Origin: an uncultured SAR86 cluster bacterium
GTDB taxonomy: Bacteria > Pseudomonadota > Gammaproteobacteria > Magnimaribacterales > D2472
Reading direction: 5' to 3'
NCBI GenBank assembly: GCA_902626385.1
Contig: CACOEZ010000010.1
Coordinates: forward strand, 1 to 37,659
Length of the DNA stretch: 37,659 bases
Under the pieces are notes generated by a model that saw only the letters and a program-made list of their open reading frames with translations, ran no database searches and had not been told where the DNA came from. The position numbers and the translations under genes are program-made. This document shows, in pieces, positions 17,581 through 21,120 of the stretch (positions are counted from its first letter, which is position 1; every line of letters starts with the position of its first letter).

Positions 17581-18038
17581 TAATCAAAAGGTATTACTCT
17601 TGATTTACCATTTCTTTTTATAATTCTTACTTTTTGATTAACCTTAAAATTATACTTTCCAACCTCTTGAATTATTGAAACCATCCTTCCGCCATTTGTT
17701 TCAATAAGTATCTCAATTCCCTCTTTTTTTGTGAGATTAGAACCTATTTCTGCACCAACAGCAGAACCCAATAAACCTCCGATAACAGCAGCTATATTTG
17801 ATTCTGGCTCAGAATCAGTTACTTCTTTTCCAGCTGCGCCCCCAATAAGTGCTCCAGCAGCTGCACCTGTTTCTCTGTCACCATCAATCACTACATCATT
17901 CAAGTCCACAATAGTTCCTATGACGACATATTGCTGTTTTTGCACATCAGACTTTCTTACAACCTCAGGAGTAAGAGACATATTAGAGCATGAGATTAAA
18001 AAAAATGATAAAGATAAAAATAATAGGTTACGATTCAT
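17580..18038 (-). CDS. Glycine-zipper 2TM-domain outer-membrane lipoprotein (SlyB/Pcp-like)
   Basis: A 152-aa lipoprotein with signal peptide and lipobox LISC (C17). The centre carries the glycine-zipper repeats GAAAGALIGGAAGKEV and then AAVIGGLLGSAVGAEIGSNL, characteristic of SlyB/OsmB-type envelope lipoproteins. The C-terminal beta-rich segment (IEILIETNGGRMVSIIQEV ... VRIIKRNGKSRVI) is the usual second half of the Pcp/SlyB family. Role is likely outer-membrane stability. It overlaps the upstream hypothetical gene by 11 bp and recX by 1 bp. Confidence 0.85.
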   Translation of the reverse strand: MNRNLLFLSLSFFLISCSNMSLTPEVVRKSDVQKQQYVVIGTIVDLNDVVIDGDRETGAAAGALIGGAAGKEVTDSEPESNIAAVIGGLLGSAVGAEIGSNLTKKEGIEILIETNGGRMVSIIQEVGKYNFKVNQKVRIIKRNGKSRVIPFD

Positions 18039-18432
18039 TAGATTGCTCCATTAAAATAAAATCTGAAACTAAATCTTCTTTAATAACAAAATATTTTCTA
18101 TTTTTTTCAAATCCGTCTAATAGTTCAACTTCGTAAATTTTCTCTTGATGTTTAGAATTCATAATTTTAATTCTGTCGCCTTTATTAAGTCTTACTAAGT
18201 TTCTTGAATCAGTGACCGAAAATTCATTCCAATCATTAAACTTTCTGGCTTGATAGGTATTGTATGCATCAGTTGAAAAAAAATATAAAACTTTTGAATT
18301 ATGCAAAGACAGCCTATTGCTTTTTTTAATAAGGGACCAAGTTTGGCCTTGTTCAACAGAAATTTCTTCATTGCTAGCACTTAGGTTAAACGTAAAGAGC
18401 ATTACTCCAAGGATTATAAAAATTTTATTCAT
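18028..18432 (-). CDS. Exported hypothetical protein, 134 aa
   Basis: I do not recognise a family. Residues 1-19 (MNKIFIILGVMLFTFNLSA) form a signal peptide. The rest is polar and probably beta-rich, with NLVRLNKGDRIKIMNSKHQEK resembling a small SH3-like or beta-barrel turn pattern, and one possible duplication in VLYFF...YEVELLDGF. It opens the six-gene minus-strand unit and overlaps the glycine-zipper lipoprotein gene by 11 bp. It is divergent from the heat-shock gene hsp20 across a 190-bp regulatory gap, so it may have its own promoter there. No cysteine, so no disulfide. Confidence 0.6.
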   Translation of the reverse strand: MNKIFIILGVMLFTFNLSASNEEISVEQGQTWSLIKKSNRLSLHNSKVLYFFSTDAYNTYQARKFNDWNEFSVTDSRNLVRLNKGDRIKIMNSKHQEKIYEVELLDGFEKNRKYFVIKEDLVSDFILMEQSNES

Positions 18433-18501
18433 ATTGTTTTGACAAATTTAAAAGATTAAAGTTCTTACTAAAGCATATTTTAATTACATCTAAAAATAAA
18501 G

Positions 18502-18527
18502 CTTGAATTTCAATTAAAAACCCATAT
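18502..18527 (+). promoter_or_regulatory. Sigma32-type heat-shock promoter of hsp20
   Basis: CTTGAA (18502-18507) is followed after 13 nt by CCCATAT (18521-18527), closely matching the RpoH consensus CTTGAA-N13-17-CCCCATNT. Transcription would begin around 18534-18536, giving a leader of about 88 nt before the ATG at 18623. The same hexamer CTTGAA precedes htpG. Confidence 0.7.
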
Positions 18528-18538
18528 TTATATACTGA

Positions 18539-18619
18539 TGGAAATGCCATAACGGATTTCCGCTTAACAAGTGTAGTCTTAGAAGATACACATTTATTTA
18601 GTTGCTTTAAAGGAGGACT
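18539..18619 (+). ncRNA. ROSE-like RNA thermometer in the hsp20 5' leader
   Basis: Three consecutive hairpins fill the leader. The first is GGAAAT (18540-18545) with ATTTCC (18556-18561). The second (18571-18591) pairs GTGTA and TCT with AGA and TACAC around a short loop, with one bulged G. The third (18600-18619) pairs AGUUGCU with the Shine-Dalgarno region AGGAGGACU; UUGCU is the conserved anti-SD element of ROSE thermometers. This modular layout, with the SD occluded in the last hairpin, is the ROSE arrangement known from small heat-shock genes. Inferred from sequence, not folded by computer. Confidence 0.65.
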
Positions 18620-18622
18620 ATT

Positions 18623-19075
18623 ATGATACTTAATTTTACTGATCCATTTTTCACAACACGTGTCTTGGGTTTTGAACCTTTATTTGATAGATTGCAGAGA
18701 CTCTCAGAATCTAATGAGCGCTCTTCAAGCTATCCTCCGTATAACATAAGTAAAGATGGTAATTTGTTTGCTATCGAAATTGCGGTGGCAGGTTTGTCAA
18801 AAGAAGATATTCAAATCGAACTTGCTGATGGTGTTTTATCAATTAGTTATGACGGACCATCGACTGAGGTAGTTAATGGAGAAAATAAGGTTGTCTATCA
18901 AGGAATTGCGCAACGAGCATTTAAACAACAATTCACTCTTTCAGAGGATGTCGTTGTTCAAGGAGCTGAGCTTATCAATGGTTTGCTTACCGTAAATCTT
19001 GAAAAAATAATTCCTGATGAGAAAAAACCGAGAATGATTGAGATTAAATCACCAAAAAGAATCTCAAGCAAATAA
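18623..19075 (+). CDS. Small heat-shock protein, Hsp20/IbpA type
   Basis: An ATP-independent holdase that binds unfolding proteins. The 150-aa product has the alpha-crystallin domain from about residue 40 (YNISKDGNLFAIEIAVAGLSKEDIQIEL) to 130 (GLLTVNLEK), which ends in the typical GxLxVxL-type strand. A short variable N terminus (FDRLQRL) resembles class A IbpA proteins. The C-terminal IxI/V-type anchor may be MIEIK. The SD AGGAGG (18611-18616) is strong but lies inside a hairpin. A sigma32-type promoter precedes it. It stands alone, with a hairpin 15 nt after its stop. Confidence 0.93.
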   Translation: MILNFTDPFFTTRVLGFEPLFDRLQRLSESNERSSSYPPYNISKDGNLFAIEIAVAGLSKEDIQIELADGVLSISYDGPSTEVVNGENKVVYQGIAQRAFKQQFTLSEDVVVQGAELINGLLTVNLEKIIPDEKKPRMIEIKSPKRISSK

Positions 19076-19090
19076 TCCACAAATTGTGAA

Positions 19091-19113
19091 ATGGGGTGCA
19101 TAATGCACCCCAT
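19091..19113 (+). terminator. Strong hairpin after hsp20, probable transcription terminator
   Basis: ATGGGGTGCA (19091-19100) pairs perfectly with TGCACCCCAT (19104-19113) over a TAA loop, a 10-bp stem with six G-C pairs. It starts 15 nt after the hsp20 stop. The following ATGTTTATT is only a weak U tract, so termination may be partial and dsbD could receive read-through. Confidence 0.6.
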
Positions 19114-19140: not shown

Positions 19141-21120
19141 ATGAAGTTTCTTGAAATATTCTTTTTATTATTTTTTTGCGTTGCCATAAATGCGGTCACT
19201 GTAAATACTGGTCACGCAAATGTATCGTTGGTGAAGTATGAAAATACTCAAGGAAATCAAAATAGAAATCTGATTGGAATTCGAATGGATATGCAAAAGA
19301 ATTGGCATACCTATTGGAAAAATCCTGGTGACTCGGGTGGTCCTATAAAAGTTAATTGGTCACACGATGATAATGTATCAATAAGTGAGTTAAATTGGCC
19401 GACTCCAAGCTTAATTCCTTATGAGCCATTAATGACTTATGGATATAAAGATTTCGTCATTTTTCCATTTGAAATCACTAATTCAAATAATAAAAACTCT
19501 GTTATAGAGGCAAGCATAGATTTTTTGATTTGTGATGATATATGTGTTCCAGAAAAAGCATTTATAAAAACAAACCTCCAGGATATTGAAACAGACAATT
19601 CACTTTATGAATGGTTTTTGAGAGTTCCAGCTCAAACACTTCCAGTAAGGGCATCGTTAGATAAAGATTTTATTAACATAAGATTTTCATCGCCATTTAA
19701 TGTGACTTCTGCAATATTTTTTGTTGATGATCAAGATATTGTTGAACATGCATCTGATCAGTTTCTTTCTAAAGAAGAAAATAACTACCTCTTGAGAGTC
19801 AAAAAAATTGAGGATGTGGGAATCTTAGATAGCCTGTCTGGGGTAATATCTATCAATAATAATGAAAGTTTTATTATTAATGCTGAAATTGACGGTGCTT
19901 CACAAAACTCTCTAAATATTTCATTCTTACAAGCACTAATTTTTGCATTTGTTGGTGGATTAATTCTTAATTTAATGCCATGTGTTTTTCCGATAATTTC
20001 TTTAAAAGTTTTAAGTTTTGTTTCAATGAGTAATCAATCTCCATCAAAGATTAGAGCTCATGCTCTGTCGTTTTGTACTGGAGTAATGATTTCATTTCTC
20101 ATGATTGGTCTTGCTATGATTCTTCTTAAGCAAGCTGGCTTATTTCTTGGTTGGGGGTTTCAATTACAGTCGCCAGTAATAGTTGGATTACTAAGTTTAT
20201 TAATGTTTGTCATTGGTTTGGTTCTTCTGAGTGATATAAATATCGGCTCATCACTCACTAGACTCGGTGGCGTAGGTTCCAGCGATAACTTAATTGGATC
20301 TTTTTCTACAGGTATTTTAGCAGTGATTGTAGCTTCGCCCTGTACAGCACCTTTTATGGGAGCTGCTCTTGGTTATGCATTAATTCAACCCTCTGGAGTA
20401 ACATTACCGGTCTTTTCTGCTCTCGGTCTAGGCTTTGCGTTCCCTTATTTTATGTTGTCAGCCTCGCCTAATTTAATAAATTATCTACCAAAACCTGGCA
20501 GTTGGATGGTTACGCTAAAAGAATTTTTTGCATTCCCTATGTTTGCTACATCAATTTGGCTTATATGGGTATTTAGCTTCCAAACATCTTCGAACGAGGT
20601 AATATTTTTATTGATAACAATTTTACTAATTTCATTACTAATTTGGATTGCTTCAAAAATTAATAAGCCAAATTACAGCATGGTAATTTTTATTGTTGCG
20701 GTCTTTATAATTTTCTTCCAATTTAAAGATATCTCATCAAAAGAACTTCAAAGTCCAAACGCCTTGAAGCTTGAAAGTTTTAATTATGTTGAATGGAATG
20801 AGAATATAGAGAATGAATATCAGAATAAAAATCAGGCTTACTTGATAAATTTCACTGCCGCCTGGTGTATTACGTGTCAAACAAATGACAAAATTGCATT
20901 ATCTAGACCCAACATAAAAGAATATATATATGAAAATAATATTGAATATATTGTTGCTGATTGGACAAACAAAAATGACGATATTCTTAAAACTCTTGAG
21001 TCATACAACAGAAATGGTGTTCCATTATATATTTTTTGGAAACCTGGAATGATAGAACCCAAGATATTACCTGCAATTTTGACTGAACAGATTTTATTGG
21101 ATAGTTTCAACAATTCTTAA
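19141..21120 (+). CDS. Thiol:disulfide interchange protein, ScsB/DsbD family
   Basis: A 659-aa membrane electron conduit passing reducing power from cytoplasmic thioredoxin to periplasmic proteins. A signal peptide precedes a periplasmic N domain with NWHTYWKNPGDSGGP and a CDDIC pair (C131, C135), as in ScsB-type proteins. About eight transmembrane helices follow, with reactive cysteines in NLMPCVFPIISLKVLSF (C281) and ASPCTAPFMGAALGYAL (C401). The C-terminal thioredoxin domain has AAWCITCQ (C576, C579). All three redox pairs are present. It heads a plus-strand run of five genes. The ScsB label reflects the N domain; classical DsbD is less likely. Confidence 0.92.
   Translation: MKFLEIFFLLFFCVAINAVTVNTGHANVSLVKYENTQGNQNRNLIGIRMDMQKNWHTYWKNPGDSGGPIKVNWSHDDNVSISELNWPTPSLIPYEPLMTYGYKDFVIFPFEITNSNNKNSVIEASIDFLICDDICVPEKAFIKTNLQDIETDNSLYEWFLRVPAQTLPVRASLDKDFINIRFSSPFNVTSAIFFVDDQDIVEHASDQFLSKEENNYLLRVKKIEDVGILDSLSGVISINNNESFIINAEIDGASQNSLNISFLQALIFAFVGGLILNLMPCVFPIISLKVLSFVSMSNQSPSKIRAHALSFCTGVMISFLMIGLAMILLKQAGLFLGWGFQLQSPVIVGLLSLLMFVIGLVLLSDINIGSSLTRLGGVGSSDNLIGSFSTGILAVIVASPCTAPFMGAALGYALIQPSGVTLPVFSALGLGFAFPYFMLSASPNLINYLPKPGSWMVTLKEFFAFPMFATSIWLIWVFSFQTSSNEVIFLLITILLISLLIWIASKINKPNYSMVIFIVAVFIIFFQFKDISSKELQSPNALKLESFNYVEWNENIENEYQNKNQAYLINFTAAWCITCQTNDKIALSRPNIKEYIYENNIEYIVADWTNKNDDILKTLESYNRNGVPLYIFWKPGMIEPKILPAILTEQILLDSFNNS

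Follow-up and report, generated by a model that had tools for sequence, protein, structure and literature searches.

Little is known of how bacteria of the SAR86 cluster sense warming, because these organisms, which are abundant in surface oceans, are hardly cultivated. The upstream region of a small heat shock gene in one of them raises the question of whether the gene is controlled twice, by a heat shock promoter and by an RNA thermometer in its 5' leader. We examined this locus in a stretch of 37,659 nucleotides (referred to as the window) from a SAR86 assembly of 1.09 Mb that is 72% complete, and compared it with the corresponding loci of related bacteria. The comparison makes it very probable that a ROSE-type RNA thermometer controls an IbpA-like Hsp20 in this bacterium, under a sigma32 (RpoH) heat shock promoter.

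The hsp20 gene and its leader

The hsp20 gene lies on the forward strand at positions 18623-19075, with its ATG at 18623, and encodes an IbpA-like small heat shock protein of 150 aa. The product matched the HSP20 family (Pfam: PF00011) with 50.8 bits at a cut-off of 20.8. The NCBIfam IbpA profile gave 99.7 bits, which is below its cut-off of 212, and alignment with E. coli IbpA showed 40% identity. Among named records, the nearest relatives of this gene carry SAR86 titles. Upstream, a divergent ORF on the minus strand (18028-18432) leaves a gap of 190 bp (18433-18622) before hsp20. Downstream, a strong terminator-like hairpin on the forward strand (19091-19113; arms ATGGGGTGCAT/ATGCACCCCAT) has a 10-pair stem with 6 GC pairs, and comparable sites were found in shuffled sequences at a mean of 0.3. 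Since this hairpin intervenes between hsp20 and the ORF at 19141, hsp20 is probably transcribed as a single gene, separately from that ORF.

Reckoned from the promoter described below, the transcript would begin near 18535 and carry a 5' untranslated leader of about 88 nt (18535-18622, forward strand). The minimum-free-energy fold of this leader consists of three successive hairpins, as the original prediction had described it, and the RNAalifold consensus of 36 leaders gave the same arrangement. Hairpin I (18540-18561) is formed by GGAAAU, a bulged G at 18546 and CC, a loop AUAAC, and the returning strand GG-AUUUCC. Hairpin II (18571-18591) pairs GUGUA, interrupted from UCU by a bulged G at 18576, with AGA-UACAC, and is an extra element with respect to relatives with two hairpins. 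Hairpin III (18599-18620), the proposed thermosensor, brings together the anti-Shine-Dalgarno sequence UUGCU (18602-18606), an instance of the motif U(U/C)GCU, and the Shine-Dalgarno (SD) sequence AGGAGG (18611-18616). In the fold, U18602 pairs with A18617, U18603 with G18616 as a wobble, C18605 with G18615 and U18606 with A18614, followed by U-G wobbles; G18604 is bulged and the lower stem is UAG/CUA. The positions originally given for the promoter boxes, UUGCU, AGGAGG and the 190-bp gap are all correct in the sequence.

Conservation of the anti-SD hairpin among SAR86 relatives

We assembled 77 leaders (76 distinct): the one in the window, 56 at loci taken from named records (L031-L086; 46 titled SAR86 and 10 only Gammaproteobacteria or Proteobacteria) and 20 from genomes of the same order. 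By similarity, the window, the 56 named-record loci and one further leader (L140) were assigned to the group f1 (58 leaders); the families f2, f3 and f4 are represented by 6, 7 and 6 leaders, respectively. A locus from Mucilaginibacter (L087; Bacteroidota, 29% identity) was excluded from every leader count, and L049, which contains N bases, was retained. The leaders of some genomes that were matched as relatives, for example G035 and G047, stand outside the 77.

All 77 leaders contain U(U/C)GCU, followed after 1-9 bases by GGAG and then ATG, and in each of them this motif can be placed opposite the SD in the ROSE arrangement with its bulged G. The original prediction had proposed that the last hairpin pairs the SD with UUGCU and had named a lack of conservation of this pairing in related genomes as the result that would speak against it; motif and pairing were kept in every leader. 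The description of UUGCU as the hallmark of ROSE elements stands insofar as the motif U(U/C)GCU covers it, but UUGCU is the rarer form, being present in 15 leaders as compared with UCGCU in 62, and within f1 only in the window and L048. The SD reads AGGAGG in 63 leaders, AGGAG in 13 and GGAGG in one.

The pair adjoining the SD-pairing stem (G18601-C18618 in the window) is G-C in 64 of the 77 leaders, namely the 58 of f1 and the 6 of f4, and C-G in the other 13 (6 of f2 and 7 of f3). As judged from the aligned leaders, this swap between SAR86 families is compensatory. The next pair outward is A-U in 68 leaders, U-A in two and unpaired in seven.

In our own reading, the number of hairpins is two in f2 and f4 and three in f1 and most of f3. 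A mechanical scan for the longest hairpin with a one-base bulge 5' of the anti-SD found the bulged base to be G in 73 of 77 leaders; for some of them the hairpin so chosen was hairpin II. For hairpin II of f1, mechanical scanning gave a bulged G in 50 of the 58 leaders; the remaining eight had a non-G bulge or no hairpin II, in some cases because the scan chose another fold. Of the 58 f1 leaders, 40 contain the sequence AUGC(C/U) where hairpin II lies, whereas the window has another bulged-G form at this place.

A sigma32-type promoter upstream of hsp20

Promoters recognised by sigma32 combine a CTTGAA-like with a CCCATAT-like box. In the window, CTTGAA (18502-18507) and CCCATAT (18521-18527) are separated by a 13-nt spacer and form a sigma32-type promoter on the forward strand (18502-18527); the corresponding stretch of E. 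coli ibpA reads CTTGAAA...CCCATTT. The string alone is not significant within a single genome, as TTGAA-N12-17-CCCATAT matched once in the assembly, at the hsp20 promoter, and twice in the reversed control. Across loci, a pattern defined post hoc, with the loci already seen (TTGA[AT], 12-17 nt, C[CT], one or two A/T, A), was found 5' of hsp20 in 64 of 76 loci versus 6.2% of dinucleotide shuffles, and as written was absent in the other 12. L062 was omitted from this count, as its sequence begins near the gene. Together with an rpoH gene in the genome (381.6 bits, cut-off 323.1), the two boxes support the sigma32 (RpoH) promoter that had been predicted, at which RpoH would be expected to act.

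Farther upstream, five of the six f4 loci (L126, L129, L135, L137 and L139) showed by eye a long inverted repeat 5' of the promoter, approximately GTAACnTATACTACTCAT and its near complement. The sequence 5' of the hsp20 promoter in L075, L076 and L078 (approximately 1300-1400), compared by eye over 200 bases, differed from that of the other loci, and these three may have a different gene neighbour at this side.

Covariation within the leader

An alignment (A1) of 36 of 57 f1 leaders, the window included, yielded an RNAalifold consensus of three helices with 19 pairs, of which 12 showed changes on both sides. In A1, 97.2% of the cells were paired, as compared with 86.5% after column shuffling and 36-48% with slid partners. 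The covariation score was 0.417 versus 0.202 for shuffled alignments, none of 500 reaching the observed value, and at most 0.102 for slid partners. Less striking was the count of further pair types, which was matched by 29 of the 500 shuffles. The three helices are thus truly paired and fall within the two to four successive hairpins of a ROSE element. Compensatory changes in relatives, which the original prediction had put forward as supporting evidence, were accordingly found in the alignment and in the G-C/C-G swap between families.

The variation was distributed unevenly over the helices. Hairpin I showed changes on both sides in 6 of 8 pairs with 99.7% of cells paired, and hairpin II in 5 of 7 pairs with 92.9% paired. 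Hairpin III is nearly invariant in A1, with two of its four pairs constant, one changed on one side and one showing a double change, in L059 only. For this hairpin, the compensation between families beside the SD is a stronger test than the variation within f1.

Searches with a covariance model of the leader

A covariance model (R1) was built from A1, with the window among its 36 sequences. In the source assembly its sole match at E up to 1 covered positions 18527-18625 and scored 94.0 bits; at the same threshold, 75 of 100 relatives had a match. For 42 genomes whose match had E < 0.001, its end was compared with the position of the gene, and in 41 it fell on the hsp20 start codon, as read from the sequence itself in the case of G043; the exception was G047, where the match and an Hsp20 fragment lie on different contigs, the fragment at a contig edge. 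Since R1 was built from f1, its f1 matches are not independent; the f3 and f4 leaders are outside its training set.

When 274 genomes of the class were searched with R1 and E up to 0.5 was allowed, there were matches at 11 places, which lie in 10 genomes. Five of these are hsp20 leaders, namely that of the window, two others from its own order (E 7.7e-5 and 0.086) and a further two from one genus in another family of the class (E 0.005). The other six places (E 0.07-0.28) were rejected as leaders and taken as chance matches, as no Hsp20 is found within about 1.5 kb on each side. The two leaders from another family of the class that were found by R1 (L143:1501-1578 and L144:1501-1578) have two hairpins with UUGCU before an IbpA-like gene; an Rfam search of L143 gave no ROSE match up to E 10. 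R1 failed to find the E. coli ibpA leader, and its only match in L088 was one of 12.9 bits elsewhere. The bare string TTGCT-N1-9-AGGAG occurred at 44 sites in the assembly versus 11 in the reversed control and is not significant alone there.

Relationship to known ROSE thermometers

Scans against all Rfam families revealed no ROSE family in the window or in 20 named-record loci of f1; weak matches to other families in these sequences were at chance level and were rejected. The ROSE model (Rfam: RF00435) had no match in the window, the 20 f1 loci or the 19 leaders of f2-f4. The ROSE_3 model (Rfam: RF02523) scored 44.1 bits, above its gathering cut-off of 43, at the hsp20 leader of L121, an f2 relative of the same order. 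Below the cut-off it matched further f2 and f3 leaders (L133, 33.9 bits; L125, 31.5; L136, 30.4; L138, 25.8), in L131 and L132 it matched only at chance-level E, and for 12 of the 19 f2-f4 leaders there was no ROSE match among the matches listed. Across 100 genomes, the four best ROSE_3 matches were all hsp20 leaders, one of them over the cut-off, and among the matches listed no f1 leader match of R1 coincided with a ROSE_3 match. With ROSE_2 (Rfam: RF01832), none of 40 genomes exceeded the cut-off and no match was listed at a known hsp20 leader; the E. coli ibpA leader, as positive control, scored 100.4 bits. The search against the ROSE models that had been suggested as a check was hence negative for the window and the 20 f1 loci and positive, just above the cut-off, for one relative of the same order. 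We regard the SAR86 leader, by way of these same-order relatives, as kin to ROSE_3.

According to the available parts of two studies (PMC3669281, PMC4166951), ROSE-like elements lie 5' of small heat shock genes and consist of two to four hairpins, the 3'-proximal of which pairs the SD imperfectly with U(U/C)GCU. Excerpts of the first of these describe short two-hairpin ibpA thermometers of Pseudomonas, in which, as in SAR86, a U(U/C)GCU:SD hairpin directly precedes the small heat shock gene and a sigma32-like promoter is present (PMC3669281). We infer that ROSE_3 represents this Pseudomonas type. The first hairpin of the ROSE_3 consensus, GAUGCC-loop-GGGUC, has the same bulged G as hairpin I of SAR86, whereas the window's group has the additional hairpin II, is AT-rich and is missed by the Rfam model. 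The E. coli ibpA leader (ROSE_2) has UCGCU opposite AGGA before ibpA, like the SAR86 leaders, and its upstream GCC-UGAU-GGGU would, in our own reading, allow a hairpin that contains a bulged G. The ROSE-G element, in the part of its description accessible to us, has opposed bulged Gs and shares with the SAR86 leader a bulged G in the anti-SD, but has CUGCU and an ABC transporter gene in place of U(U/C)GCU and hsp20 (PMC12857270). For another ROSE element, the bulged G and the U-G wobbles just past the motif are described, in the portion of the source at hand, as important for function (PMC11342760).

Folding energies and predicted opening

As a single sequence, the window leader folded with a z-score of -0.93. 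Its SD was at least as buried in 73 of 200 dinucleotide shuffles, and for 16 of the 77 leaders tested this number ranged from 37 to 182 of 200. ViennaRNA predicted an SD exposure in the window of 0.23 at 10 °C that increased to 0.55 when the temperature was 50 °C, and the accessibility in the six f2 leaders to go from 0.09 to 0.12 between 10 and 60 °C. The folding across temperatures that had been proposed as a check gave a rise in the window, little change in f2 and burial no better than that of shuffles. Temperature-dependent accessibility failed to tell real leaders from shuffled ones and was therefore left out as support. The excess over chance is, in these sequences, one of conservation, of covariation in relatives and of placement directly before hsp20, and not of fold energy.

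Opening temperatures were estimated with rough nearest-neighbour values as the point of zero free energy of the isolated hairpin III. For the window this was 47 °C, at the bottom of the f1 range (47-67 °C, median 61 °C); the medians were 31.5 °C in f2, 46 °C in f3 and 63 °C in f4, and all 77 leaders ranged from 29 to 67 °C. The values of 47 °C for the window and 61 °C for f1 far exceed seawater temperature. The E. coli hairpin drawn likewise gave 68 °C, and the E. coli ibpA thermometer operates far below this temperature, so that the predicted values rank stabilities at best.

Proposed mechanism and alternative explanations

We consider the SAR86 leader a strong candidate for a divergent ROSE type of the ibpA/hsp20 kind that is spread over the SAR86 order and would respond to temperature. 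Upon warming, RpoH would use the promoter and transcribe hsp20 from the predicted start. In the cool, hairpin III would hold the SD against U(U/C)GCU by pairs that are weakened by the bulged G and the U-G wobbles. Above a threshold it would melt in the cell, so that ribosomes could load and Hsp20 would be heat-induced, with hairpins I and II remaining folded as scaffolds.

The best surviving alternative, which we consider possible though distinctly less probable, is that the leader serves above all to bind Hsp20, by which the protein would repress its own translation until aggregated proteins draw it off, temperature acting indirectly. In the parts of the source available, E. coli IbpA represses its own translation via the 5' UTR and requires Arg93 and an aromatic residue at position 34 for this (PMC10474464). 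The equivalents, R98 and Y37 of the window Hsp20, are kept in all eight SAR86-group proteins of an alignment (A2), and hairpins I and II are strongly conserved although they do not bury the SD. R97 and K98 of the E. coli protein, which the same excerpts name as also needed (PMC10474464), correspond however to Gln-Gln in all eight proteins. Moreover, such autoregulation is an addition to a thermometer and not an alternative to it, because in E. coli both mechanisms act on one leader. In the window's SAR86 group, hairpin II often repeats the design of hairpin I, and the conserved hairpins that leave the SD free could dock Hsp20, so that one leader would sense both heat and protein aggregation; we offer this as a speculation that is rather unlikely to hold. 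If true, all three hairpins would share one bulged-G design where hairpin II repeats hairpin I.

That the hairpins merely stabilise or insulate the mRNA, with the sigma32 promoter alone providing heat control, is improbable. Hairpin I of the Pseudomonas ibpA thermometer is described, in the available part of the source, as temperature-insensitive and possibly protective of the mRNA (PMC3669281), and the nearly flat accessibility predicted for the f2 leaders would fit such a role; this reading leaves the conserved U(U/C)GCU opposite the SD and the compensated flanking pair unexplained. A chance AU-rich fold beside an ordinary purine-rich SD, for which the weak z-score, the equal burial in shuffles and the 44 bare motif sites could be cited, is contradicted by the covariation against slid controls, the compensation between families, the ROSE_3 match in relatives and the R1 matches ending on the start codon, and is extremely improbable.

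Significance for SAR86

Returning to the ROSE-type thermometer, the class itself is well known, and its presence in the SAR86 lineage has apparently not been described before: our literature search on SAR86 and RNA thermometers, outside which most subscription papers lay, found no description. The Rfam ROSE models miss AT-rich lineages such as the window's group. The 76 distinct leaders, with predicted openings of 29-67 °C, could show whether thermometers track water temperature. That a conserved leader and a heat shock promoter are kept in small genomes suggests that, for SAR86 bacteria, the cost of controlling this chaperone quickly is repaid.
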